From positions 124,001-188,000 of the forward strand of contig NZ_JACBZS010000001.1 in the NCBI RefSeq assembly GCF_013408305.1: a stretch of 64,000 nucleotides of DNA. The letters are read 5' to 3'. The DNA comes from Naumannella cuiyingiana (GTDB lineage Bacteria > Actinomycetota > Actinomycetes > Propionibacteriales > Propionibacteriaceae). The notes under the pieces are model-generated. The model was not told the DNA's origin. It did not search any database and saw nothing but the letters and a program-made list of their open reading frames with translations. Made by a program: the position numbers and the translations under genes. Of this stretch, positions 50,561 through 63,916 are shown piece after piece. Each line of letters starts with the position of its first letter. The stretch's first letter is position 1.

Positions 50561-50582
50561 CCTTTGCGTCCTTCTGCAAAGG
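50561..50582 (+). promoter_or_regulatory. Small hairpin upstream of the NlpC/P60 gene
   Basis: CCTTTGC (50561-50567) and GCAAAGG (50576-50582) form a perfect 7-bp stem with an 8-nt loop, 75 nt before the NlpC/P60 start. It could be an operator or part of a leader. It lacks the ydaO/c-di-AMP riboswitch core. Confidence 0.4.
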
Positions 50583-50656
50583 ATTGTCGTCCCCGATCCG
50601 CTCCGGCCAGCGTGGTGTTCGCAACAACCGGACACTCACGAAGGGCAGGAAAGATC

Positions 50657-51535
50657 ATGACCACCACGACCATCCGTCCCGACGGAATCCGCAGGACGAT
50701 CGCCGGCATCGCCGCGACCCTCGCGCTCGGCGGCGGTCTCGCCGCCGGCGTCGCGACCACGGCGCCGATCGACCGGGCCAGCGCCGCGAGCTGCGCGGCG
50801 CAGACCGACGCCACCGCCGAGGCGACGGCGATGATCGACGCCGCGTGCGCCGAGGTCGCGGCCGGCACCCTCTACTCGTGGGGCGGCGGGCACGACGCCG
50901 AGCCCGGCCCGTCGACCGGCATCCCGAATCCCGACGCCGGCTACGACCACACCAACCGCACCGGCCTGGACTGCTCGGGCCTGGTCCGCTGGGCCTGGTT
51001 CAAGGCGACGGGCGTCGACTTCGGCGGCGTGGCCACCAGCGGGATGCCCGACGCGCTCGAGGCGAACGGCTTCACCGATGTCGGCACCGACGAGGCCAAC
51101 TGGCAGCCCGGCGACATCATCATCTGGACCGGGCACACCGCGATCTACCTCGGCGGAGGCCAGATGGTGCAGGCCCAGGGCGCCGACGAGGGCCTGAACG
51201 TGAAGCCGGTGAGCTCGCAGGGCGACCGGACGCGGGTGGGCACCTTCCGGCACGGCGGCGACGGCGGCGGAACCGTCCCGCCGCCCAGCCCGGGCGGACA
51301 GTCGATCACGGTGTACGCCACGGACGTCAACGTCCGCAGCGACGCCACCAGCCAGAGCACCTCGGTCGGCAAGGTCAGCCAGCGCCCGGCCAACTTCACC
51401 TGCCAGAAGCGGGGCGAGAGCGTCAGCTCCGAGGGCTACACCAACGACCTGTGGTCCTACTCCGACGAGCTCGGCGGCTATGTGAACAACGTCTTCCTGC
51501 AGGGCCCGGCCGACTTCGGTCTGCCGACCTGCTGA
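50657..51535 (+). CDS. Secreted NlpC/P60 endopeptidase with C-terminal SH3-like domain
   Basis: Protein of 292 aa. A signal peptide (RRTIAGIAATLALGGGLAAGV) probably ends near residue 44. The NlpC/P60 domain (about 65-200) shows Cys106 in LDCSGLVRWAW and His160 in GHTAIYLGGG; the third polar residue is likely Gln172 in MVQAQG. A Pro/Gly linker leads to an SH3b-like domain (216-292) with two Cys. Such proteins cut peptidoglycan stem peptides. AGGAAAG is about 5 nt upstream of ATG 50657. It is 34 bp from the next gene, so the two form an operon. Confidence 0.9.
   Translation: MTTTTIRPDGIRRTIAGIAATLALGGGLAAGVATTAPIDRASAASCAAQTDATAEATAMIDAACAEVAAGTLYSWGGGHDAEPGPSTGIPNPDAGYDHTNRTGLDCSGLVRWAWFKATGVDFGGVATSGMPDALEANGFTDVGTDEANWQPGDIIIWTGHTAIYLGGGQMVQAQGADEGLNVKPVSSQGDRTRVGTFRHGGDGGGTVPPPSPGGQSITVYATDVNVRSDATSQSTSVGKVSQRPANFTCQKRGESVSSEGYTNDLWSYSDELGGYVNNVFLQGPADFGLPTC
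51296..51532 (+). repeat. SH3-domain coding repeat, copy 1
   Basis: A 237-bp coding segment repeated at 51687-51923 with a 391-bp offset, about 90% identical by eye, with long identical runs at the start (GTACGCCACGGAYGTCAACG region) and end. It encodes the C-terminal SH3-like domain of the NlpC/P60 protein. The sharp edges suggest recent duplication or gene conversion. Confidence 0.88.
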
Positions 51536-51569
51536 CCACCCGCAGCCACACCGACTCCAGGAGATGATC

Positions 51570-52493
51570 ATGAACACCAGCAAGCTTCGCACCGGCGGCC
51601 TCACCCTGGCAGCGACCGCGCTCGCCGCGACCGGCGCCCTGGCCCCGACCGCCCTTGCCCCGACCGCCCCGGCGCATGCCGCGGACGGCCAGTCGATCAC
51701 GGTGTACGCCACGGATGTCAACGTCCGCAGCGACGCCACCAGCCAGAGCACCTCCGTGGGCAAGGTCAGTCAGCGCACCGCGGTCTTCACCTGCCAGAAG
51801 GCCGGCGAGACCGTCAGCTCCGACGGCTACACCAACAACCTGTGGTCGCGCAGCGACGAGCTCGGCGGCTACGTGAACAACGTGTTCCTGCAGGGCCCGG
51901 CCGACTTCGGCCTGCCCGCCTGCGACGGCGACTCCGAGCCGACACAGCCGCCGGCGCCCGGGGGCGAGGACGTCACGCTCGACCAGCTCAAGACGCTGTT
52001 CCCGAACGACATCCACGACGAGGCGACGCTGGCCGAGGACCTGGCCAACCTGAACGCCGAGATGAAGGCGGCCGGCATCACCACGCCGGCACGCAAGGCG
52101 GCGTTCCTGGCCACGCTCGCCTCGGAGAGCGGTCTCGCCTACGACCGCGAGGAGGGTGACCAGTCGCACAACCAGCCCTACTGGGGCCGCGGCTACATCC
52201 AGCTCACCACCGCGGACAACTACGCGGACGCGTCGAACGCACTCGGGGTCGACCTCTCCAGCAACCCGGAGCTGGCGATGAGCCGGGACCACAGCGCCAG
52301 GATCGCGACCTGGTACTGGACCGATCGCGACCTGAACGCGGCGGCCGATGCGCTCGACATGGCGGCGGTCAACAAGGGCATCGGCTACCGCGCCAACGAC
52401 GCCGAGGACACCAAGCGCTGCAACAACTTCACTGCCGCGCTGACCCTGTTCAACGGCGGCTCGCTGCCCGGCGAGGTGAACTGCGCCCGCTGA
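51570..52493 (+). CDS. Secreted GH19-like peptidoglycan/chitin hydrolase with N-terminal SH3-like domain
   Basis: Protein of 307 aa. The signal peptide ends near AHA (about residue 37). An SH3b-like domain (40-118) is nearly the same as that of the preceding protein. After a Pro-rich linker, the catalytic domain (about 135-307) has LATLASESGLAYDREEG with Glu186 as likely acid and GRGYIQLTTADNYADAS at 207-223, signatures of GH19/lysozyme-like enzymes. It is shorter than plant-type chitinases and resembles phage-lysin and bacterial muramidase-like GH19 domains. ATG 51570 has AGGAG 6 nt upstream; the ATG at 51564 lies within that RBS. The substrate (chitin or glycan strand) is not fixed. Confidence 0.88.
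   Translation: MNTSKLRTGGLTLAATALAATGALAPTALAPTAPAHAADGQSITVYATDVNVRSDATSQSTSVGKVSQRTAVFTCQKAGETVSSDGYTNNLWSRSDELGGYVNNVFLQGPADFGLPACDGDSEPTQPPAPGGEDVTLDQLKTLFPNDIHDEATLAEDLANLNAEMKAAGITTPARKAAFLATLASESGLAYDREEGDQSHNQPYWGRGYIQLTTADNYADASNALGVDLSSNPELAMSRDHSARIATWYWTDRDLNAAADALDMAAVNKGIGYRANDAEDTKRCNNFTAALTLFNGGSLPGEVNCAR
51687..51923 (+). repeat. SH3-domain coding repeat, copy 2
   Basis: Partner of 51296-51532, at the N-terminus of the GH19-like protein. Differences cluster in two short patches (the RPANF/RTAVF and WSYS/WSRS regions), leaving the rest almost identical. Conserved residues include the domain core and both Cys. Confidence 0.88.
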
Positions 52494-52579: not shown

Positions 52580-53338
52580 TCAGGCGTCGGCCAGCGCGTC
52601 CTCGGGGACGTCGGCATTGGTGTAGACGTTCTGCACGTCGTCGGAGTCCTCGAGCGCGTCGACGATCTTCTCCAGCTTCGCGGCGTCGTCGGCGTCGACG
52701 GTCTGGGTGTAGTCGGGCACGAAGCCGACCTCGGCGGAGTCGTAGTCCAGGCCGGCGGCCTGCACGGCCTTGCGGACCTCGACCAGCTCGTTCGGGCCGG
52801 AGACGATCTCGAACACCTCGCCCAGGTCGTTGACCTCCTCCGGCCCCGCATCGAGCGTGGCCTCCAGCAGGTCGTCCTCGGACACCGCGCGTCCGTCCTG
52901 GTTCTTCTCCAGCACCACCACGCCCTTGCGCTGGAAGATCCGGGCCGTCGAACCGACATCGGCCATCGTGCCTCCGTTGCGCGTCACCGCGACGCGCACG
53001 TCCGAGGCCGACCGGTTGCGATTGTCGGTCAGGCACTCGATCAGCATGGCGATCCCGGCCGGGCCGTACGCCTCGTACATCACGGTCTCGTAGTTGGCCC
53101 CGCCGCCGTCCAGGCCGCCGCCGCGTTTGACCGCGCGGTCGATGTTGTCGTTCGGGACGCTGGACTTCTTCGCCTTCTGGATGGCGTCGTACAGCGTCGG
53201 GTTACCGGCCGGATCGGGGCCGCCCAGCCGGGCCGCCACCTCGACGTTCTTGATCAGCTTGGCGAACAGCTTGCCGCGCTTCGCGTCGATCACGGCCTTC
53301 TTGTGCTTGGTCGTCGCCCATTTGGAGTGTCCACTCAT
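52580..53338 (-). CDS. yebC: YebC/PmpR-family translation factor
   Basis: Protein of 252 aa, the normal length. It starts [23 protein letters not shown], the diagnostic N-terminus, with [13 protein letters not shown] and [22 protein letters not shown] downstream. YebC proteins help ribosomes through polyproline-like stalls and were earlier described as DNA-binding regulators. The start is unambiguous. A TAGGAT -10 box at 53348-53353 overlaps the GNAT stop codon and leaves only a 2-3 nt leader. Normally ruvC follows; here the opposite-strand block separates them. Confidence 0.96.
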
Positions 53339-53347
53339 AACTTGCCC

Positions 53348-53353
53348 ATCCTA
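53348..53353 (-). promoter_or_regulatory. Candidate -10 element for yebC overlapping the upstream stop codon
   Basis: TAGGAT on the minus strand, 9 nt from ATG 53338, so the mRNA is nearly leaderless. The element includes the TAG stop of the GNAT gene. Confidence 0.45.
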
Positions 53354-54337
53354 CTGCTCGCGCCCGTACAACAGCACCGTGTCGGTCACCTCGTAGCCGA
53401 CCGACTCGTACAGCTCGAAACGACGCTCCGTCGCGTCCACGCCGAGGCCGCCGCCGTCCAGCCCGGCGGTGGCGAACGAGGCGAGGGTACGCTGCAGCAA
53501 CGCCCGCGCCACGCCGCGCCCGCGCCAGTCGGGGCGGACGCCCAGCCGGTCGGTCCAGCCCTCCGCATACGCACCCGGGTGTTCCTGGGCGGTCGCGGAG
53601 TTCAGGGCATAGCCGACGACCTCGCCGCGTGACAGCGCGACCCACGACCACTCCGGGCGGGCCGCCCGCCGTTCGATCGACTGGCGCCAGGCGTCGGGCG
53701 GGACCGGCTGGCTGCCCCAGCCCTGCGCGAACGCGTCGTTGTGGGCGAGCCGGACCGGCTCGGACAGCGCCGCGGTGAACGGGACCAGCTCGATGCCCAC
53801 GGGATCGGGCGCGATCGGTCGCTCGCCGGCGCGGTCGAGCTGCACGTGCAGGTCGCTGAACCAGCGCAGCGGTGCGAGCCCGTTGCGTTCGTACAGCCGG
53901 CGGCGGCTGTTCAGGTGCTCATCGGCGTACGCCTCGACCCGCAGGCCGCCGCTCGCCCCGGTCTCGCGGTGGTGTTCCCGGGCGCGGCGGAGCTGCCACT
54001 CGAACACCCCGCGGCCGATCCGGTGGTAGCGCCACGCCGGGTGGACCACGCCGGTCAGCACCACCCGCACCGGGTCCACGTCGCCGGCACGCGGATGGTT
54101 CCAGCCGTACGCCACCACCGAGCCGCCCTCGCTGCCGATCACCGCGTGCTCGGACGGGTCGACCGGCGACTCGTCGAAGTCGGCGCGCAAACGCTCCAGG
54201 CCGTGCCGATCGGCCGGGTCGTCGAGATGTTCGGCGGCGGCGAGGAGGTCGGCCAGCGCCCCGAGGTCGTCGCGGCGCAGCGGGCGCCAGTCCAGATCCG
54301 TGCGCGCGAGATCGCTGTGGGCGAGATCCTGGATCAC
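53351..54337 (-). CDS. Tandem GNAT acetyltransferase
   Basis: Protein of 328 aa with two GNAT domains. The second is complete, with the acetyl-CoA loop VRPDWRGRGVARALLQRTL and the ending YESVGYEVTDTVLLY. The first has VHPAWRYHRIGRGVFEWQL in the equivalent place and is less canonical, so may be degenerate. A GTG at 54337 is preferred, with AGGAGG 7 nt upstream; the ATG at 54370 lies upstream of that RBS. The pattern resembles mycothiol synthase-like and other two-domain GNATs, but MshD-specific features were not established. The substrate is unknown. Confidence 0.85.
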   Translation of the reverse strand: MIQDLAHSDLARTDLDWRPLRRDDLGALADLLAAAEHLDDPADRHGLERLRADFDESPVDPSEHAVIGSEGGSVVAYGWNHPRAGDVDPVRVVLTGVVHPAWRYHRIGRGVFEWQLRRAREHHRETGASGGLRVEAYADEHLNSRRRLYERNGLAPLRWFSDLHVQLDRAGERPIAPDPVGIELVPFTAALSEPVRLAHNDAFAQGWGSQPVPPDAWRQSIERRAARPEWSWVALSRGEVVGYALNSATAQEHPGAYAEGWTDRLGVRPDWRGRGVARALLQRTLASFATAGLDGGGLGVDATERRFELYESVGYEVTDTVLLYGREQ

Positions 54338-54368
54338 CGTTGATCCTCCTCGGTTGTCGACAATGCCC

Positions 54369-54374
54369 ACCCTA
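54369..54374 (-). promoter_or_regulatory. Candidate -10 element for the GNAT gene
   Basis: TAGGGT on the minus strand, about 24 nt of leader including AGGAGG. It supports the GTG start at 54337. Confidence 0.4.
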
Positions 54375-54414
54375 TGTCCGACGGGGTCGGGCGCCTATGG
54401 TCGCGGCCGACCGG

Positions 54415-55020
54415 TCAGCGATCCGGCCCGACCCGGGCATCGATCACCGCGGCCAGCGCGGCGAGCACCCCCTCGGTGACCGCGCCGGCGTCGTCGCCGG
54501 CATCGAGCCGCGCGAAACCCGCATCCACGAGCTGGTGCGTCATCGCCACGAGCAGCGCGAGATCGGCGGGCCTCCCGGGTCCGAGCAGTTCGCGCCACGC
54601 CCCCGTGACCGCGTCGCTGCCCGCATGGACGTCGGCGAGTTCGCGGCGAAGCTGCTCCGGCAGCGCCCCCTCGCGCGCGATGCCCATCAACCAGCCGTGG
54701 CCGGACCGTGCGGCCTGGTCCAGGTTGCCGCGCGCCCAGGCGAGCAGTCGCTCCCGGGCGTCGTCGCGGCCGGCGACGGCGGCGTCGACGGCGGCCAACC
54801 AGGGCGGCAGGTGCCGGGTCAGCACGAGGCCGCGCAACTCGTCCACCGAGCGCACATAGCTGTAGAGCGAGTTGCGGGCGATCCCGACCTCACGGCTGAC
54901 CGCCGCCGCGGTCAGCGCACCCGGGCCGCCGCTGCGCATGATCGTCTCGGCCGCGTCGATCAGCGCCGCGAGCACGCGCTCGTGGTGTTCCTGGACGGTG
55001 GGGGCGGCGATCCGCGGCAT
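54415..55020 (-). CDS. TetR-family transcriptional regulator
   Basis: Protein of 201 aa. The N-terminal HTH spans about residues 13-60 (ALIDAAETIMRSGGPGALTA, then AAVSREVGIARNSLYSYVRS), followed by a ligand domain rich in helices. ATG 55020 (MPRIAAPT) is chosen; a longer ORF with an ATG at 55116 would overlap the operator. A TAGGGT -10 box ends 7 nt upstream, so the mRNA is likely leaderless. It is divergent from a DUF2871 membrane gene, with palindromic sites between, which suggests local repression. The ligand is unknown. Confidence 0.9.
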   Translation of the reverse strand: MPRIAAPTVQEHHERVLAALIDAAETIMRSGGPGALTAAAVSREVGIARNSLYSYVRSVDELRGLVLTRHLPPWLAAVDAAVAGRDDARERLLAWARGNLDQAARSGHGWLMGIAREGALPEQLRRELADVHAGSDAVTGAWRELLGPGRPADLALLVAMTHQLVDAGFARLDAGDDAGAVTEGVLAALAAVIDARVGPDR

Positions 55021-55027
55021 GCCGGAC

Positions 55028-55033
55028 ACCCTA
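55028..55033 (-). promoter_or_regulatory. Candidate -10 element, leaderless tetR-type gene
   Basis: TAGGGT on the minus strand, 7 nt before ATG 55020. Confidence 0.5.
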
Positions 55034-55049
55034 CCGCCGGGATTTGTTC

Positions 55050-55088
55050 CCGACACCCGCGTCGGTATGATGCCGACACAGGTGTCGG
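55050..55088. promoter_or_regulatory. Twin TetR operator
   Basis: CCGACAC-AG-GTGTCGG (55073-55088) is a perfect 7-bp dyad. A second, imperfect copy CCGACACCCGCGTCGG lies at 55050-55065, 23 bp away centre to centre. Both sit between the divergent TetR and DUF2871 genes and flank the expected promoters. This is the normal layout of a TetR autoregulated pair; the TetR protein as binder is inferred. Confidence 0.65.
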
Positions 55089-55118
55089 AAACTGTCCGGC
55101 CGAACGAGAGGAACATCG

Positions 55119-55571
55119 ATGGGACGAAAGATCTATCTGGCCACGGCTGTCTGGACCGCGCTCGGCCTGGCCAGCGGGCTGTTCTACCGCGAGTTCACCA
55201 AGCTGAACGGGTTCACCGGCGACACCCAGCTCGCCGTCGCCCACACGCACGCGCTCGCCCTGGGCACCACGGTGGGGCTGGTGGTGCTCGGCCTGCGTCA
55301 GGTGTTCGGGCTGACCGGACGCCGGTTCGCCGCCTGGTTCTGGCTGTGGAACGCGGGTCTCGCGCTGACCTTCGGCACGCTCGTGGCAAAGGGCTCGCTG
55401 CAGGTGCTCGGCAGCGCCGCCGCCGACTCCAAGATGCTCGCCGGCATTGCCGGGCTGGGCCACATGAGCCTGACCGCGGCGCTCGTGCTGCTCTTCCTCG
55501 CGCTCGCCCCGCGGCTGCGCTCCGACGCCGCGCTCCGCGGCGACGACGCCGCCGCGCTCGCGACGCGCTGA
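55119..55571 (+). CDS. DUF2871 family four-helix membrane protein
   Basis: Protein of 150 aa with four hydrophobic segments (ATAVWTALGLASGLFYREF, LALGTTVGLVVLGLRQVF, FWLWNAGLALTFGTL, ALVLLFLAL). Conserved His residues in AVAHTHALALG and LGHMSLTA are a hallmark of DUF2871 and recall heme or metal-binding membrane helices. GAGAGGAA lies about 6 nt before the ATG. It is under a putative TetR-controlled promoter. Function unknown. Confidence 0.85.
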   Translation: MGRKIYLATAVWTALGLASGLFYREFTKLNGFTGDTQLAVAHTHALALGTTVGLVVLGLRQVFGLTGRRFAAWFWLWNAGLALTFGTLVAKGSLQVLGSAAADSKMLAGIAGLGHMSLTAALVLLFLALAPRLRSDAALRGDDAAALATR

Positions 55572-55577
55572 GCGGGC

Positions 55578-58049
55578 TCAGCGCCAGACAGTGCTGCCGC
55601 GCCGGGCGAGCACGGGGCTGACCGGCCGGCGCTCGCGGCCCAGCCGGGCCTCCGCGTCCTCGACCACCGGGCGTACCCGGGTCCACTCGACCATCGGCCA
55701 ACCCTGCGCATCGGCGACCCGGAGCAGGCCGAGGTCCGGGCACACCGCCACCGGCCGGCCGACCGCGCTGAGCATCGGCTCGTCGGCATGGGAGTCGGCA
55801 TAGGCGTAGCTGCGGTCCAGGTCGATCCCGTGCAACTGCGCGTAGTGCCGCAGCCACGCGCCGCGCGACTCCCCCACCATCGGCGGACCGGTCAGGAATC
55901 CGGTGCAGATGCCGTCGTCGTCGGTCTCCAGGTCGGCGGCCACGATCACGTCGAAGTAGCGGCGCAGCGGACGGGTCAGCGGGCGGATCACGCCGGTGAT
56001 CAACACCGTGGTGTGCCCCGCGGCCCGGTGCTCCTCGACGCGACGCAGTGCATCGGGCGACAACCGGCCGAGGATCTGCCCATCCAGCTCGGTGTCGACG
56101 AGGCGATCGAGCGCGGCCAGATCGGCCCCGGCGTAGCGGCGGTAGAAGCTGCGCAGGAACGTGCCGCGGTCCCGGCTCTCCGCCACCAGGTAGTCCGGCA
56201 CCCGGCGGGCGAGCGCGGCGACCTCGCCGAGCCGACCGGCCGGACCCAGCTCGGGCAGCCGCGCCCACAGATAGGTCTCGACGACATTCGTCGCCAGCAT
56301 GGTGCCGTCCAGGTCGAAGGCGGCCAGGACATCGGTGGCCTTCGGCAACGGGGCGGCACCCCGGGCGACCTTTTCCTGGCGGGAGCGTCGGTGCTCGCCG
56401 CGACGCACGGGCGCGGTGACGCTCGGCGCGTGCACCTCGCCCATGTAGTGCCGCCAGTCATAGGCCCCGGAGTCGAACGCCCAGTCCGCCGCATCGGCAG
56501 GGTCGAGCGAGCGGTGCAGCGCGAGCGTGTGATCGTCGACGAAGTGCAGTTCGGACTGCAGGTACTCCCCGTACAGGGTCAGGTAGCGCTCCAGGAACTC
56601 CAGCTCGGCGCTGGCCTTGTCCACCCGGCGGGCGAGCTCACGCGTGGTCCGCGATCGGGGCAGGAAGCGCAGCGCCCCGCGGGCGGCGTCCACCCCGGTC
56701 CGGTACCAGCGCAGCTTCCGGTCGACCGCAGCGGCGCCGGGGAAGTCCCATTCGGGCAGTTCCGGATTCTTGCCGTTGATCTCGAACGGATGCTCCTGGA
56801 AGTACGCGCGGATGATCTGGTAGATCCGCGAGTAGGTCAGCGGATTGCGCGCCCCGGAGTTGAGATGGAAGTACTCCGGACGGCCCACCTCGGGGTCGGT
56901 GGCACAGACCGCCAGCGTGGCGTTGACGACGAGGTCGACCGGAATGATGTCGATCACCGAGTCGGGCGACGCCGGGAACTCCGGCATCTGGCCCTTGCCG
57001 TAGGCCATGATCAGCGGCTCGGCCATCTTGAAGCCCTCGATCCAGCCCGGGTAGGGCTGGCTCAGCGCCGACTCGACGATCGCCGGCCGGACGATGCTGA
57101 CCTTGATCGACGAGCCCAGATCCTCCACCGCCCGCTCGGCCATCGCCTTCGCGAACGTGTAGACATCGGTCCAGCCCAGCGACCGGGCGCGCTCGGTGCC
57201 GGCCTCGACGAGCCGCTCGGCGACCCATTCCAGCCGGCGCCGCTCGGTGTCGCGGGAGGTGGTCAGGTACCCGGCCTTGCGGTGGTCGCGCTCGGCCGCG
57301 CGGCGCAGCTCGGCCAGTTGGCCCGGGGTGCGGGACTGCTTCTCGATGGTCTCGCTCATCTCCATCGCCTGAGCGGTCTCGGCCAGATAGTCGACATCGT
57401 GGTCGTGCGCGGCCTCGGGGATCGCGCCGCGGCGGCGGCCCGCGGTGTAGGCGGTGGAGACGTGGACATAGTGCGGTACGCGGTCCAGCGTCCCGTCGGG
57501 ACCGGTGCACGCCTCGATGGTCCGCTCGATCAGCGCCCGGGTGCCCAACACATTGGTGCTGAAGGCCTTGTCGATGGGCGGGTCGAAGGACACATCGCCG
57601 GCGCAGTGCAGGACGATGTCGAGGTCTCGCGGCAGCGCCGGCACGTCCGGCAGATCGCCCGCGATCACCTCGATCCGGTCGGCCAGCAGGTTGGCCACCC
57701 CGTCCGGCCGCTCGGGCGTGGCGGCGGCCTCGCGCGCGGAGGCGAAGATGCTCTTCTGCAGCAGGGCGCGGACCCGGGTCTCCGCCGGCCGCTTGCCCTT
57801 CGGGCGTACCAACAACGCCACCTTCGTGTCGGGCAGCTGCGTCAGGATCTTCCACAACAACAACTCACCGATGAAGCCGGTGACGCCGGTCATCACGATC
57901 TTCTTGCCGCCCAACAGCTCGGCGAGTCGCCCGTCCAGGACCGTCCCCGTCGGCTGGCCGGGGGCGACGCCGAAGCTGGCCGCGGGCGCGTGCTCGCCGA
58001 ACCCCGCGTGGCCGGAGTCGGGGCTGTCCGGCGGGGCGCTCGACGTCAT
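55578..58049 (-). CDS. Fatty acyl-CoA reductase-HAD phosphatase fusion
   Basis: Protein of 823 aa. Residues about 45-400 are an extended SDR/NAD_binding_4 domain: [18 protein letters not shown] with the cofactor loop TGVTGFIG (54-61), Ser198 in HVSTAYT and a YXXXK active site YTFAK (297-301). Residues about 440-545 match the FAR C-terminal (Sterile) domain. After a basic linker (548-572), residues 575-775 are a HAD-IB hydrolase: nucleophile DLDGT (579-583), motif II Thr685 in LITGV, and acidic pair in DSHADEPML. The likely reaction is reduction of an acyl-CoA or acyl carrier substrate to aldehyde or alcohol, plus phosphate removal. Its ATG overlaps the priA stop by 4 bp. The combination is unusual and its product is unknown. 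Confidence 0.85.
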
Positions 58050-58831
58050 CTGGGCTGCTCTCCTTCGGCGGATGTCGCACCGGCGGGGTCCGGGCCGGCG
58101 GGCTCGGCGCCCCGGCAGATCGCCAGCGCGTCGGGCAGGGAGAAGTTACCGACATACAGGGCGGTTCCGACAATCGCGCCCTCCACGCCGATCGGCACCA
58201 GGCCCCGCAGACGCCGCAGGTCCTCCAGCGTGGACACGCCACCGCTGGCCACGACGGCGGCGTCCGTGCGGGCACAGATGTTGCCGAGCAGTTCGTAGTT
58301 GGGCCCGGACAACATGCCGTCGGAGGCGACATCGGTGACCACGAAGCGCGCGCAGCCCGCCTCGGACAGCCTGGCCAGCGTGGCGTAGACGTCGCCACCC
58401 TCGCGGGTCCAGCCGCGGGCGGCGAGTCGGTCGTTGCGCACGTCCAGCCCGATGGCGATCCGGTCGCCGTGCGCGGCGATGATCTCCTCGCACCAGTCCG
58501 GGTTCTCCAGCGCGGCGGTGCCGATGTTCACCCGGCGGCAGCCGGTCGCCAGGGCCCGCTCCAGGCTGGCATCGTCGCGGATGCCCCCGGACAGCTCGAC
58601 CTGCAGGTCCATGGCCGCGACCACCTCGGCGATCACCTCGGCATTGTCGCCGCGGCCGAACGCCGCATCGAGGTCGACCAGGTGGATCCACTCCGCGCCG
58701 CCGTCCTGCCAACGCCGCGCGGCCGCCAACGGATCGCCGAACACCTTCTCGGTGCCGTCGACGCCCTGGACAAGCTGGACGGCCTGACCGCCCTTGACGT
58801 CGACGGCGGGCAACAGCTCGAGTTGAAGCAC
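58046..58831 (-). CDS. priA: PriA: bifunctional phosphoribosyl isomerase (HisA/TrpF)
   Basis: TIM-barrel protein of 261 aa. Catalytic Asp11 is in [10 protein letters not shown], and [22 protein letters not shown] and [16 protein letters not shown] are barrel signatures. In actinobacteria this HisA homologue usually also performs the TrpF reaction as PriA, and GWTR(E/D)GGD with Arg is typical of it; the dual function here is inferred. It starts at a GTG; a TAGGGT -10 element at 58838-58843 ends 6 nt before it, so an internal leaderless promoter is likely. The C-terminal ~20 residues are an Ala/Glu-rich extension that overlaps the FAR-HAD gene. Confidence 0.93.
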
Positions 58832-58837
58832 CAGCCG

Positions 58838-58843
58838 ACCCTA
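58838..58843 (-). promoter_or_regulatory. Candidate -10 element, internal leaderless priA promoter
   Basis: TAGGGT on the minus strand with 6 nt to the GTG at 58831. It lies in the 56-bp gap after hisH, so priA and FAR-HAD could be transcribed apart from hisDCBH. Confidence 0.45.
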
Positions 58844-58887
58844 CTCGACACCGGCCGGGCCGGACCGCCACGACAGGACAGGGCGCC

Positions 58888-59544
58888 TCAGCCGGCCGGG
58901 ACCAGGCTGTCGACCCAGTTGTGCAGCAGCCGCGCACCGGCCTCGCCGGACTTCTCCGGGTGGAACTGGGTGCTGGCCAACGCCCCCCACTCCACCGCGG
59001 CGACGAACCGGTCGCCGTCGTGCTCGGCCCAGGTGACCACCGCGTCGCCGGGCAGCCCCGCCGCCTCGCGCACCGCATAGCTGTGCACGAAGTAGAAGCG
59101 CTCGTCCGCCACCTGGTCGAACAGCCGGCTGCCGGCGCCCGGTTGCACGGTGTTCCAGCCGATGTGCGGCAGCCGCCGGGCCTGGAGTCGCTCGACCGTC
59201 CCCGGATAGATCTGGCAGCCGGTGCTGGCGACGCCGTGCTCGACGCCGCTGGTGAAGAGCACCTGGTGTCCGACACAGATGCCGAGCACCGGGCGGGAGG
59301 CGGCCAACCGGTCCGCGATCAGGCTCGGGCCGTCGACACTGACCAGGCCGTCCATGCAGGCGGCGAAGGCGCCCACACCGGGCACCACCAGGCCGTCCGC
59401 GGCGGCCACCGCCTCCGGGTCGGCGGTGATCTCGACCTCGGCGCCCGCCGCGGCGAGCGCGCGGGAGGCCGAGTGCAGATTGCCGGATCCGTAGTCGAGC
59501 AGGACGACCCGCGGCCCGCGCAGCAGGCCGAGGGCCGACGTCAC
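58888..59544 (-). CDS. hisH: Imidazole glycerol phosphate synthase glutamine amidotransferase subunit HisH
   Basis: Class I glutamine amidotransferase of 218 aa. It supplies ammonia to HisF. Triad: nucleophile Cys in [11 protein letters not shown], then His and Glu in [10 protein letters not shown]. The N-terminal [17 protein letters not shown] is typical. A GTG at 59544 overlaps the hisB stop by 4 bp. hisF is not present in this window; a separate location is required. Confidence 0.95.
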
Positions 59545-60155
59545 AACGCACCCTTGGTGCTGGGCACCCCGTCGACCCGGGGATCCGGCTCGACCGCCGC
59601 CCGCAGCGCGCGGGCCAGCGCCTTGTACTGGGCCTCGGCGATGTGGTGCGGGTCGCGCCCGGCCAGCAGCCGCAGGTGGACGCAGATGCCCGCATGGTGG
59701 GCGATCGACTCGACGACATGCGCGGTCAGCGACCCGGGATAGGGCACCTGTCCGCGGCCGCCGCCGATCAGGGCGTACGCCTGCAGCTCCGGTTCCCCGG
59801 ACACGACGCTGTACGGCCGCCCGGAGGCATCCACCACGCAGTGCGCCAGCGCCTCGTCCAGCGGGACCGTGGCGTCGCCGAAGCGGCGGATGCCGGCCTT
59901 GTCGCCCAGCGCCTCGCGGATCGCCTGCCCGAGCACGATCGCCGTGTCCTCGACGCTGTGGTGCGCATCGACCTCGACATCGCCCACGGTCTCGATCTGC
60001 AGGTCGATCAGCGAGTGCTTGCCGAGCGCGGTCAGCATGTGGTCGAAGAACGGTACGCCGGTGCTGATCGCGGTCCGGCCCGTCCCGTCCAGGTCGACGC
60101 GGACCGTGACGCGCGATTCCGCCGTCTCGCGGGTCAGTTCGGCGGTGCGGCTCAT
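59541..60155 (-). CDS. hisB: Imidazoleglycerol-phosphate dehydratase
   Basis: Enzyme of 204 aa that dehydrates imidazoleglycerol phosphate. The Mn-binding histidine motifs [12 protein letters not shown] (64-75) and [12 protein letters not shown] are present, with [12 protein letters not shown] near 36-47. It is monofunctional, without the phosphatase domain of enteric HisB. ATG 60155 overlaps the hisC stop by 4 bp. Length is normal. Confidence 0.96.
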
Positions 60156-61282
60156 CGGGGGGCCTCCTCGGCGGACGGGCGGGGGTCGGTGATCGGCAGG
60201 TCCAGCTCGCGGGCGACCTCGAGCAGCGCGTCGCGGAAGGCCGCCATCTCCTGCGGCGTACCCGCCGAGACGCGCAACCAGCCGGCCGGCCCGGTCTCGC
60301 GGACCAGCACGCCGCGGTCCAGCAGACCCTGCCACACCGCGTGCCGGTCGGTGAAGGTACCGAAGAGCACGAAATTGGCATCGGACTCGGCCACGCGCAG
60401 CCCGGCCCGGGTCAGCCAGTCGGCCAGCCCGTCGCGCTCGGCACGCAGCGCGGCGACCTGACCGAGCAGCTCCGCCGAGTGCCGAAGCGCGACCCGGGCC
60501 GCACGCTGGCTGAGCGCGGACAGGTGGTACGGCAGCCGGACGATCCGGCAGGCGTCGACCACGGCCGGATCGGCGGCCAGATAGCCCAGCCGCCCGCCCG
60601 CGAACCCGAAGGCCTTGGACATCGTGCGGCTGACCACCAGCCTGGGGTGGCCCGGCAGCAGTTCCAGCGCCGACCGGGTGCCCGGCCGGGCGAATTCGGC
60701 GTACGCCTCGTCGATGATCACCAGGCCGGGTGCGGCGGCCAGCACCGCCTCGATCAGCTCCGACGGCGTCGCGGTCCCGGTCGGATTGTTCGGCGAGGCG
60801 ATCAGGACGACGTCCGGGCGCCGCTCGGCGATCTCGGCCACGGCGGCGTCCGGGTCGATGCTGAAGTCGTCGCGGCGCGGGACGTGCAGCATCGCCGTGT
60901 GGGTGTTGCGGGCGTACTCGGGATACATCGAGTAGGTCGGCGGAAAGGTCAGCAGGCTGCGGCCGGGACCGCCGAAGGCCTGCAGGAGCTGGGTCATCAC
61001 CTCGTTGCTGCCATTGGCGACCCAGACATTCGCGGCGGTCAGGCCGTGCCCGAGGTAGGCCGCCAGGTCCGCGCGCAGATCCGCGGCCTCGCGGTCGGGA
61101 TAGCGGTTCAGCCCGGCGGCCTCCTCCGCGATCGCGGCCCCGAGTTCGGTACGCATGGCCGCCGGCGCCGGGTAGGGATTCTCGTTCACGTTGAGGCGTA
61201 CCGGCACGTCCAGTTGGGGCGCGCCGTACGGCTCCTGTCCGGCCAGCTCCGGGCGCAGCGGCAGATCGGCGAGGCGGCTCAT
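60152..61282 (-). CDS. hisC: Histidinol-phosphate aminotransferase
   Basis: PLP fold-type I transaminase of 376 aa. The Schiff-base lysine is in [19 protein letters not shown], with [10 protein letters not shown] and IIDEAYAEF upstream. N-terminal [12 protein letters not shown] is the HisC signature. The ATG overlaps the hisD stop by 4 bp, and its own stop overlaps hisB. It converts imidazole acetol phosphate and glutamate to histidinol phosphate. Confidence 0.95.
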
Positions 61283-62655
61283 CGCGGATCCTCCTCGACC
61301 CCGGCCCCATCGACCCGGGCCCCGTCGACCCGGGCCCCCTCGACCAGGGCCAAGTCGAATCGTGCGCTCACCGCGGCCCCGTGCGCGGGCAGGTCCTCGG
61401 CCTCGGCGAAGGTGACCACGGCGTCGGCGATCTCGGCCAGCCCGGAGCGGTCGTAGTCGATCACATGCACGGCCTTGAGGAAGGTGCGCACGTTCAGGCC
61501 CGAGGAATGACAGGCACAGCCGGCGGTCGGCAGGACGTGGGTGCTGCCCGCGGCATAGTCGCCGAGCGAGACCGGCGACCACGCGCCGACGAAGATCGCG
61601 CCCGCATTGCGGATCCGGGCCGCGACGGAGGCGGCGTCGCGGGTCTGGATCTCCAGGTGTTCGGCGGCATAGGCGTCGGCCACAGCGATCCCGGCAGCGA
61701 GGTCGTCGACCAGCACCATCGCCGACTGCGGGCCGCCCAGCGCGGTGGCGATCCGCTCGGCGTGCTTGGCGGCGGCGACCCGCGATTCGAGCTCGGCGGC
61801 GACCGAGTCGGCCAGGGCGGGCGCATCGGTGATCAACACAGCGCCGGCGAGCGGGTCGTGCTCGGCCTGGGAGATCAGGTCGGCGGCGACGTGGGCGGGC
61901 TCGGCGCTGTCGTCGGCGAGGACGGCGATCTCGGTCGGTCCGGCCTCGGCGTCGATGCCGACCTGGCCGCGCAGCAGGCGCTTGGCCGCAACGACGTAGA
62001 TGTTGCCGGGCCCGGTGACGAGATCGACGCGCTCGCACAGGCCGGGGACCCCGTGGGCGAACATCGCGATGGCCTGCGCCCCGCCGACGGCGTACACCTC
62101 GTCCACGCCGAGCAGGCCGCAGACCGCGAGCACCGCCGGGTGCGGCAGCCCGCCGAAATCGCGTTGCGGCGGGGAGGCCACGGCGATTCGGTCGACGCCT
62201 GCGACCTGGGCCGGAACGACGTTCATCAACACGCTGGACGACAGCGGCGCCAGCCCGCCGGGCACGTAGAGCCCGACCCGGGAGACCGGGATCATCCGCT
62301 GGCCGACCCGCGCGCCGGGCGCGAGCTCGACCACCGTGGACCGATCGCCGCCCTCGGCCGCGGCGACCCGCCGACGCCGGTCGATCGCGACCTCGAATGC
62401 GGCACGAAGTTCGGGATCCAGGCCGGCGACCGCGTCCGCGATGGCGGCTGCCGGCACCCGGAAGCTGTCGGGTACCACATGATCGAACCGCTCGGAGTAC
62501 TCGGCCAGCGCATCGGCGCCGCGCGCGGCCACGTCGTCGATCACCGGCGCGACGACTCGCGCCGCGGCGGCCACGTCGAACGGCGCGCGCGGCACGATCG
62601 CGGTCAGGTCCTCGGCGGCCAGGTCGCGGCCGCGCAGGTCGATGGTGCGGATCAC
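61279..62655 (-). CDS. hisD: Histidinol dehydrogenase
   Basis: Enzyme of 458 aa that performs the last two steps of histidine synthesis with NAD+ and zinc. Visible motifs are [34 protein letters not shown], catalytic HDP in [10 protein letters not shown] and zinc-site [29 protein letters not shown]. Start: GTG at 62655 (VIRTIDLRG), with TAGAAT ending 7 nt upstream, so the mRNA is probably leaderless. The C-terminal tail has an ARVDG repeat ([18 protein letters not shown]). It is the first gene of the operon. Confidence 0.96.
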
Positions 62656-62662
62656 CCGCCCG

Positions 62663-62668
62663 ATTCTA
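62663..62668 (-). promoter_or_regulatory. Candidate -10 element, leaderless his operon promoter
   Basis: TAGAAT on the minus strand, 7 nt before the GTG at 62655. No leader peptide or attenuator-like histidine run can fit, so classical attenuation is absent at this promoter. Confidence 0.55.
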
Positions 62669-62734
62669 GGAGCCGGCACCGCCGGGCGCCTGCCGGTTCC
62701 GCCCGCGCGAGACACCCCCGGAAGAATGGGCCGC

Positions 62735-63226
62735 ATGGCACGACGCGACGGCACTGGTACGCCGGCGATCGCCGCCCTGGTCGCAGCCGGCGCGGCGCAC
62801 ACACTGCACCCCTATCCGCACGACCCGCGCAGCTCCGCGTTCGGCGACGAGGCGGTGGCCGCGCTCGGACTGGATCCGCGGCACGTCTTCAAGACCCTGA
62901 TCGCCCGGGTCGGACCGGCGGGCGGCTTGGTCTGCGCGGTGCTGCCCGTTGCCGACCGACTCGACCTCAAGGCGTTCGCGGCCGCCGCCGGCGGCAAGCG
63001 CGCCGAGCTGGCCGATCCGGCCGCGGCGCAGCGGTCCAGCGGCTACGTGGTCGGCGGCATCTCCCCGCTGGGCCAGCGGCATCCGCTGCCGACGATCATC
63101 GACGACAGCGCGCGGGCATGGCCGACGATCTTCGTCTCGGCCGGTCGGCGGGGCCTGCAGGTCGAGCTGGCGCCGACCGACCTGGCGGCGCTGACCGATG
63201 CGCGGTGGGCCGCGATCGCCCGCTGA
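62735..63226 (+). CDS. ybaK: Cys-tRNA(Pro) deacylase-like YbaK/EbsC protein
   Basis: Protein of 163 aa. The YbaK fold core shows the conserved catalytic Lys in [29 protein letters not shown] and [20 protein letters not shown]. Such proteins clear Cys mischarged on tRNA-Pro. Two ATGs are possible, 62726 and 62735; 62735 is better spaced from GGAAG. It diverges from the hisD operon and is convergent with the membrane gene, the stops adjoining. Confidence 0.9.
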
Positions 63227-63916
63227 TCAGCGGCGACGCCAGGGCAGTCGCAGCGGCGTCGGCTCCTCGTGGTCCGGGGCGAGCGAGGACCACAACAGGA
63301 CCGGCAGCACGCCCGCCAGCGGCCAGGCCAGCAGCGCCGCGCTGCCGCGTACCGTCAGCGCGACCGCGACCACGTCGCCCGGCTGGGCCATCGCGATCCG
63401 GGACTCGAAGTCGCCGGGGCCGAGCAGCCAGCCGACCAGCCAGCAGACCAGACCCGCCGCCAGCGCGCCCAGCGCCGCCAGCACCGCGACCGGCCAGCCC
63501 AGCTCGGACAACCAGCGCCAGCAGATCACCCCGAGCGCGAGGCTCAGCACCAGCCCGATCACCACGAACCAGGCGTCCGAGGCGTAGTAGCTCGCCAGGC
63601 CGCGTTCGGTCGTGGTGGCGGCTCCGTCCGGGGCGATCTGGTAACCGGGCAACGCGACCACGGCGAACCACAGTGCCCCCGCCAGGGCGCCGGTCGCCGC
63701 GCACAGGGCGAACCAGATCGCCGCCCAGCGGGCGATCCTGGTGGCGGAGAAGGCCGGGCGCAGCTCCGGCGGGGTGGCCATGTCATCGGTGATCACGGGG
63801 ATCGACCCGGTGGTCACGGCGTCACCGACATAGCGCACATCGGGCTGCTCGGCGGCGGGCCGCGTCTCGTGCCCCTCGGGTGCCTGCCTGCCCCCGGCCG
63901 GTTGTTGGAAAACCAT
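63227..63916 (-). CDS. DUF2567-like membrane protein
   Basis: Protein of 229 aa. The first ~55 residues are polar; four hydrophobic segments follow (IWFALCAATGALAGALWFAV, FVVIGLVLSLALGVICW, VAVLAALGALAAGLVCWLVG, ALLAWPLAGVLPVLLW). The layout matches the DUF2567 group often found between dnaE and hisD in actinobacteria. The ATG lies two bases after the dnaE stop, so expression with dnaE is likely. No catalytic motif is visible. Confidence 0.78.
   Translation of the reverse strand: MVFQQPAGGRQAPEGHETRPAAEQPDVRYVGDAVTTGSIPVITDDMATPPELRPAFSATRIARWAAIWFALCAATGALAGALWFAVVALPGYQIAPDGAATTTERGLASYYASDAWFVVIGLVLSLALGVICWRWLSELGWPVAVLAALGALAAGLVCWLVGWLLGPGDFESRIAMAQPGDVVAVALTVRGSAALLAWPLAGVLPVLLWSSLAPDHEEPTPLRLPWRRR

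Follow-up and report, generated by a model that had tools for sequence, protein, structure and literature searches.

Rice DPW is a plant alcohol-forming fatty acyl reductase (FAR) that prefers acyl-ACP. It is the closest described counterpart of the reductase half of FAR-HAD, the fused protein reported here, and the best structural match of FAR-HAD residues 37-550 (PDB 7eoz; 444 residues aligned, Z 40.3, rmsd 3.5, 29% identity); phmmer matches it to residues 42-552 with an E value of 5e-47. Unlike FAR-HAD, DPW is a plant protein without a HAD domain. The HAD part gave sequence matches to the HAD-IB hydrolases 3fvv (E 2e-16) and SerB (E 4e-9), from which it differs in being fused behind a FAR and, relative to 3fvv, in having Arg729 in place of Lys. 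The nearest concept is the elb ether-lipid operon of Myxococcus xanthus (ElbB, ElbD, ElbE), which, in the portion of PMC9131029 available, brings together a FAR1-like enzyme, a HAD protein, an acyltransferase, and an SDR, and thus shares enzyme kinds with the FAR-HAD operon described below. According to the same portion, ElbD joins FAR1-like, acyl-CoA synthetase, ACP, and acyltransferase parts and ElbB (HAD) is separate, unlike FAR-HAD, in which Pfam shows reductase and HAD parts only; neither a LarA-like enzyme nor a Zn-alcohol dehydrogenase (Zn-ADH) is named in that portion for elb. The LarA-like nickel-pincer enzyme of the FAR-HAD operon has its nearest solved relatives among single-His LarA-like enzymes (PDB 9q2u, 9q3j, 9q3k; PMC12611868; E 2.6e-30 and 6.3e-20), which adjoin sugar-metabolism genes in the part of that report available. 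By its residues, the operon enzyme appears to belong with them, Asn taking the place of the other His in 66/67 copies, but it lies in a lipid-type operon and its Propionibacteriaceae copies are without the cofactor lysine. Each of these enzyme families is already known. A search of the open-access literature (subscription journals being outside its scope) yielded no description of either the FAR-HAD fusion or the four-gene operon, and a term search of the available text of three LarA papers (PMC7583248, PMC11770544, PMC11796402) returned no mention of acyltransferases or fatty acids.

The window, which is the whole stretch of 64,000 nucleotides that was analysed, carries FAR-HAD as a single ORF of 823 aa with an ATG start and zero internal stops. 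The gene and its domains are as follows.

55578..58049, reverse strand: FAR-HAD fusion gene, from the ORF, Pfam, subfamily models, and predicted structure.
56916..57890, reverse strand: extended-SDR NADP-binding acyl reductase domain, residues 54-378 (S198, Y297, K301), from Pfam NAD_binding_4.
56394..56915, reverse strand: C-terminal FAR part, residues 379-552, from phmmer to 7eoz (42-552) and fold (37-550), with a weak Pfam Sterile match.
55770..56324, reverse strand: HAD-IB phosphatase domain, residues 576-760 (D579, D581, T583, T685, R729, D752, D756), from Pfam and subfamily models.

The fusion of a FAR with a HAD-IB domain, as proposed in the initial annotation, is real, since the ORF is unbroken and Pfam, fold, and HAD-IB score agree. 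NAD_binding_4 was matched at residues 54-378 (E 2.9e-47) with its TGxxGFxG, Ser, and YxxxK signatures, and HAD at residues 576-760 (E 2.1e-30) with DxDxT, S/T, K/R, and DxxxD. The C-terminal FAR domain was recognised from the fold and phmmer matches, the Pfam Sterile match being weak at 20 bits vs a cut-off of 35.4. The HAD part scored 98.7 bits against TIGR01490 (HAD-IB), barely above the cut-off of 98.3, and 56.8 bits against TIGR01488 (cut-off 45). A structure was predicted using AlphaFold2 with 73 homologues (pLDDT 91.1, pTM 0.86); its ends are probably disordered, because pLDDT falls below 50 at residues 1-9, 11-22, and 806-823. The structural matches after DPW, at Z 28.6, were thioester-reductase domains and other SDRs. 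Domain scores, phmmer, and the structural match to DPW thus identify a full-length FAR that is followed in the same chain by a HAD-IB domain. Lys301 and Asp579, previously singled out for mutation, occupy the SDR lysine and HAD nucleophile positions and are invariant in 73 aligned sequences. In a larger alignment of 127 rows (50 from a Propionibacteriaceae clade and 77 from outside it, with the divergent L203 set aside), T54, G55, G58, G61, S198, Y297, K301, D579, R729, D752, and D756 were invariant in 127/127, and the catalytic residues were kept in all rows of both sets. D581, which we take to be the HAD acid/base position, is replaced by Glu in 29 of the 77 outside rows, and given this replacement the HAD domain may not be an active phosphatase in every homologue.

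FAR-HAD was matched (E <= 1e-30) in 94 of 396 genomes sampled from Actinomycetota and in 77 of 147 sampled from Propionibacteriaceae, so that the survey suggested earlier points to more than a chance fusion. One open frame covering 600 or more residues of the fusion profile was found in 128/128 loci (80 named loci and 48 others, the latter partly chosen for length), which disposes of the idea that an unfused FAR and HAD pair is present in all relatives. Judged from these sequences, the fusion is old in Actinomycetota. Divergent relatives of about 41-45% identity were also seen in family genomes without LarA-like (e.g. G443, G491, G512), and some of this group had stops inside the match.

Gene order around FAR-HAD was determined by neighbour clustering and profile searches, and Lar_N, ADH, and acyltransferase domains were confirmed in representative neighbours using Pfam. 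Outside Propionibacteriaceae the usual order is FAR-HAD, Zn-ADH, LarA-like nickel-pincer enzyme, and PlsC. For 40 distant loci, which were our own pick from 93 phylum hits and mostly on longer contigs, all three partners lay 3' of FAR-HAD in 26 and ADH followed by LarA-like in eight, four of these eight being short of sequence and four belonging to a lineage with hisF upstream; the others had ADH alone (4/40), LarA-like and PlsC (1/40), or none (1/40). At the 80 named loci, Zn-ADH, LarA-like, and PlsC followed in 32 and LarA-like and PlsC without ADH in 35, while LarA-like stood alone in five (four with little sequence left), ADH alone in one, PlsC alone in one, and none of the three was present in six (one with little sequence). 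The operon Zn-ADH is closest to polyol/sugar dehydrogenases, e.g. L-idonate 5-dehydrogenase, and PlsY lies directly upstream of FAR-HAD in 4/40 distant loci (L185, L191, L193, L197; one tested). LarA-like matches occurred in 111/396 Actinomycetota genomes; 21 of these, with a best match of <=42% identity, were set aside before co-occurrence was counted. LarA-like (>42% identity) was present in 87 of the 94 FAR-HAD genomes, and FAR-HAD was missing in three of the 90 such LarA genomes, all three being 60-79% complete (Fisher p 6.5e-75 for the 396 genomes, a value that ignores kinship). Within Propionibacteriaceae, LarA-like was found in 50/147 genomes, all 50 among the 77 with FAR-HAD.

A cluster resembling larE, the gene for the nickel-pincer cofactor, lies beside the operon in six of the 40 distant loci (e.g. 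L172:5109-5957), and one member was identified as LarE at 298.7 bits. A TetR-family regulator cluster was observed next to the operon in 16/40 distant loci (e.g. L168:12028-12645), and because of it the operon may have its own control outside Propionibacteriales.

A FastTree tree of the 128 rows placed 50 Propionibacteriaceae rows in one clade with local support of 100; L203 (G011), for which in-frame stops were reported by the search, sits on a very long branch and its placement is unsure. LarA-like copies outside the clade have His124, Lys200, and His216 in 67/67 and Asn191 in 66/67 (the equivalence of the first three to LarA numbering is presumed from the alignment), so the cofactor lysine and key histidines are present there. 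Inside the clade they are lost, Lys200 being found in 0/40, His124 in 2/40, and His216 in 3/40 readable copies. By row, LarA-like in the clade was scored as dead in 40, absent in seven, partial in two, unscored in one, and live in none. The dead copies are full length with the fold kept (the L008 copy still folds like single-His LarA-like enzymes, TM 0.73-0.80) and are under purifying selection, with w 0.12-0.23 in seven pairs. Lost synthesis of the NPN cofactor was considered as the cause of the decay but does not alone account for it, since LarC is present in 22 of the 50 family genomes with LarA-like; outside the family it was found in 12/12 genomes with high-identity LarA and in 0/4 order relatives without LarA.

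PlsC shows a similar decay. Outside the clade NHx4D (HX4D) was found in 57/57 readable copies (61 rows, 4 unreadable), and inside it in 8/36 (37 rows, 1 unreadable), with both NHx4D and PEG in four. Dead PlsC copies are constrained to differing degrees, w being low in most pairs, 0.37-0.40 in one, and ~0.75 in L045/L046; because the latter values denote weak constraint, a role as structural partner is better founded for dead LarA-like than for dead PlsC. The dead PlsC of L008 had no Pfam match at E <= 0.001 and was identified by its position and by a profile from relatives. A dead LarA-like together with a PlsC scored as live was seen at five loci and the opposite pairing at none, which suggests that LarA-like died before PlsC. 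Rows with LarA-like absent fall in four places of the tree, and complete partner loss in at least four places speaks against the partners being needed. Because the partners died without damage to FAR-HAD, its reaction is independent of theirs.

On balance, FAR-HAD is probably a working bifunctional acyl reductase/phosphatase, the surviving core of an old Actinomycetota lipid operon whose partners have decayed or been lost. On this reading, its reductase half would use NADPH to turn acyl-CoA or acyl-ACP into alcohol, its other half would be a HAD-IB phosphatase, and the gene would lead an operon with Zn-ADH, LarA-like, and PlsC that most likely serves lipid synthesis; the role on lipids suggested earlier for the fused reductase and phosphatase probably holds. 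Reduction of acyl thioesters is likely because of the FAR fold and residues, and an alcohol rather than an aldehyde is fairly likely as the product because of the nearness to DPW. The phosphatase would dephosphorylate a lipid phosphate or polyol phosphate belonging to the PlsC/PlsY step, a substrate proposed because PlsC and PlsY adjoin, and both activities would contribute to a neutral lipid of the alkyl/acyl polyol or ether type. In the ancestral version, Zn-ADH and the nickel-pincer enzyme may have reshaped the polyol. In the Propionibacteriaceae clade, LarA-like would have lost its cofactor site and PlsC later its active site, both often remaining full length, and in the genus of the window, where both are gone from the locus, FAR-HAD would work without them. 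Long-chain 1,2-diol lipids were considered as the product, 2-hydroxy acids being substrates of LarA enzymes, and set aside, as a literature search gave no tie and the operon LarA-like is nearest to the single-His subfamily.

FAR-HAD might instead be a plain storage-lipid enzyme that makes fatty alcohol for wax esters, with the HAD domain in general phosphatidate/lysophosphatidate hydrolysis and the operon partners never forming one pathway. The FAR fold would fit, and FAR-HAD is intact where LarA-like and PlsC die or vanish, as expected of an enzyme independent of them, but the gene order with Zn-ADH, LarA-like, and PlsC recurs in distant loci and FAR-HAD presence is tightly correlated with LarA-like, and we regard this account as rather improbable. 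An ether-lipid route as in myxobacterial elb, in which the FAR alcohol is incorporated as an alkyl ether, with PlsC as the acylating and HAD as the dephosphorylating enzyme, is judged unlikely. It is favoured by the same enzyme kinds (FAR1-like, HAD, and acyltransferase, as given in the available portion of PMC9131029) and by PlsC in most operons and PlsY in one lineage; however, alkyl-glycerone-phosphate synthase is absent among the neighbour genes conserved at the distant loci, although it may lie elsewhere, and FAR activity of ElbD was, in the same portion of PMC9131029, undetected in vitro.

A wider scheme in which FAR-HAD is the core of a phylum-deep lipid pathway is put forward tentatively. 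LarA-like, with its single catalytic His, and a polyol-type Zn-ADH might ready a phosphorylated polyol for PlsC/PlsY and FAR-HAD, giving an unusual neutral or ether lipid; Propionibacteriaceae might have rebuilt this pathway around dead LarA-like and PlsC as non-enzymatic partners, and the genus of the window might keep a minimal form with FAR-HAD alone. If true, this would provide the first testable lipid-synthesis role for a nickel-pincer enzyme, within a four-gene operon carried by roughly one in four of the Actinomycetota genomes sampled, and the graded natural series of live, dead, and no partners could be used for probing non-catalytic enzyme copies.

The initial annotation lacked the ancestral partners, their decay in the family, and their absence in the window. 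The genes that lie 3' of FAR-HAD in the window are as follows.

55119-55571, forward strand: DUF2871 gene, with a DUF2871 match, in the position of LarA-like/PlsC in relatives by synteny.
54415-55116, reverse strand: TetR-like gene, with TetR_N barely under the cut-off, in the position of LarA-like/PlsC in relatives.
53351-54370, reverse strand: GNAT gene, with a GNAT match, at the distal end of the syntenic block and next in relatives.
52580-53338, reverse strand: a putative YebC-like gene, at the distal end of the syntenic block and next in relatives.

No operon partner stands in this context, which is silent on lipids. LarA-like gave zero matches in the window's genome (G000) and in that of a sister species of the same genus (G001), and PlsC is absent at the window locus, other PlsC-family genes being located elsewhere in G000. 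The DUF2871 gene faces FAR-HAD tail to tail, their stop codons being 6 bp apart. The DUF2871/TetR-like pair is absent at the G001 locus (L199), where the GNAT gene follows ~180 bp past FAR-HAD with nothing between. Replacement of the partners by this pair in a single event was thereby ruled out, and, from the comparison of the two loci, the pair arrived later in the species of the window. The genus falls inside the 50-row clade on a long branch (0.42). With this branch and with the partners gone, FAR-HAD could be a decaying relic about to leave the genus as they did; such decay is very improbable, given the open frame with all tested catalytic residues kept, the constraint on FAR-HAD (w 0.22, window vs G001), and a hisA overlap kept in both species.

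Upstream, FAR-HAD adjoins a histidine operon with the following features.

58046..58831, reverse strand: hisA-trpF (priA), TIGR01919, 348 bits (cut-off 306.45).
58046..58049, reverse strand: ATGA, in which the stop codon of priA and the start codon of FAR-HAD overlap, from the sequence.
58060..58065, reverse strand: AAGGAG, Shine-Dalgarno-like, 10 nt ahead of the FAR-HAD ATG, read from the sequence.
61279..62802, reverse strand: hisD, upstream in the his operon, from the ORF list, with the name also obtained via tblastn in relatives.

The frames between hisD and priA are presumably hisC, hisB, and hisH by similarity; the names hisC and hisD are backed by tblastn of the window frames in relatives. 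The 4-bp overlap with priA noted initially was borne out, the FAR-HAD start ATG (58049-58047) overlapping the hisA stop TGA (58048-58046) and the upstream gene being a hisA-trpF equivalog, and it is retained in the species of the window and in G001. The coupling is therefore real here, but it is no peculiarity of this genome: hisA lies within 300 bp upstream of FAR-HAD in 67/80 named loci, further off in one, and out of reach or absent in 12. Where both genes were found (71 loci), the nearest in-frame FAR-HAD start was at -4 relative to hisA in 42 and at -8 in 13. The link spans Propionibacteriaceae, Kribbella, and Actinopolymorpha and is missing in Nocardioides loci, and is thus an old, lineage-bound trait. 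The fusion needs no histidine synthesis, because hisA is upstream in 0/40 distant loci, and the overlap most likely serves to couple its translation to that of a housekeeping operon, and not to involve the enzyme in making histidine; if so, an overlap with a his gene can be conserved over long periods as a mode of expression without indicating common chemistry. The gene hisF is absent after FAR-HAD and is located instead at G000:C1:3224941-3225693. A promoter scan of 54300-63300 returned no promoter-like sites, a result that says little in such DNA. That the HAD domain is the missing histidinol-phosphatase, as its position in the his operon and matches of 69.5 and 66.3 bits to HAD-type histidinol-phosphatase models might suggest, has a negligible probability and was rejected, since these scores fall far below the NCBIfam equivalog cut-offs of 280 and 400, three inositol-monophosphatase-family genes are present in the genome, one of them HisN-like (258 bits vs the HisN cut-off of 275.15), and the same HAD domain occurs in 40/40 distant loci without hisA.

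A second his neighbourhood was observed in a separate distant lineage, where hisF, hisIE, and trpE precede the FAR-HAD operon by a few kb in L185, L197, and relatives (L183, L187, L193). There, hisF lies ~4-5 kb upstream of FAR-HAD in 5/40 distant loci; HisF, HisIE, TrpE, and PlsY were confirmed in L185 and HisF in L197. This neighbourhood is possibly due to chance.

Two further observations concern the genome of the window. A second, stronger NAD_binding_4 match was found in G000 at L001 (G000:C1:1176739-1177527), in a 1189-aa frame that also includes an AMP-ligase-like part and looks, by eye, carboxylic-acid-reductase-like. Within the window, the secreted-looking neighbour ORFs at 50564-51535 and 51564-52493 share, by eye, a nearly identical GQSITVYATDVNVRSDATSQSTSVGKVSQR stretch.
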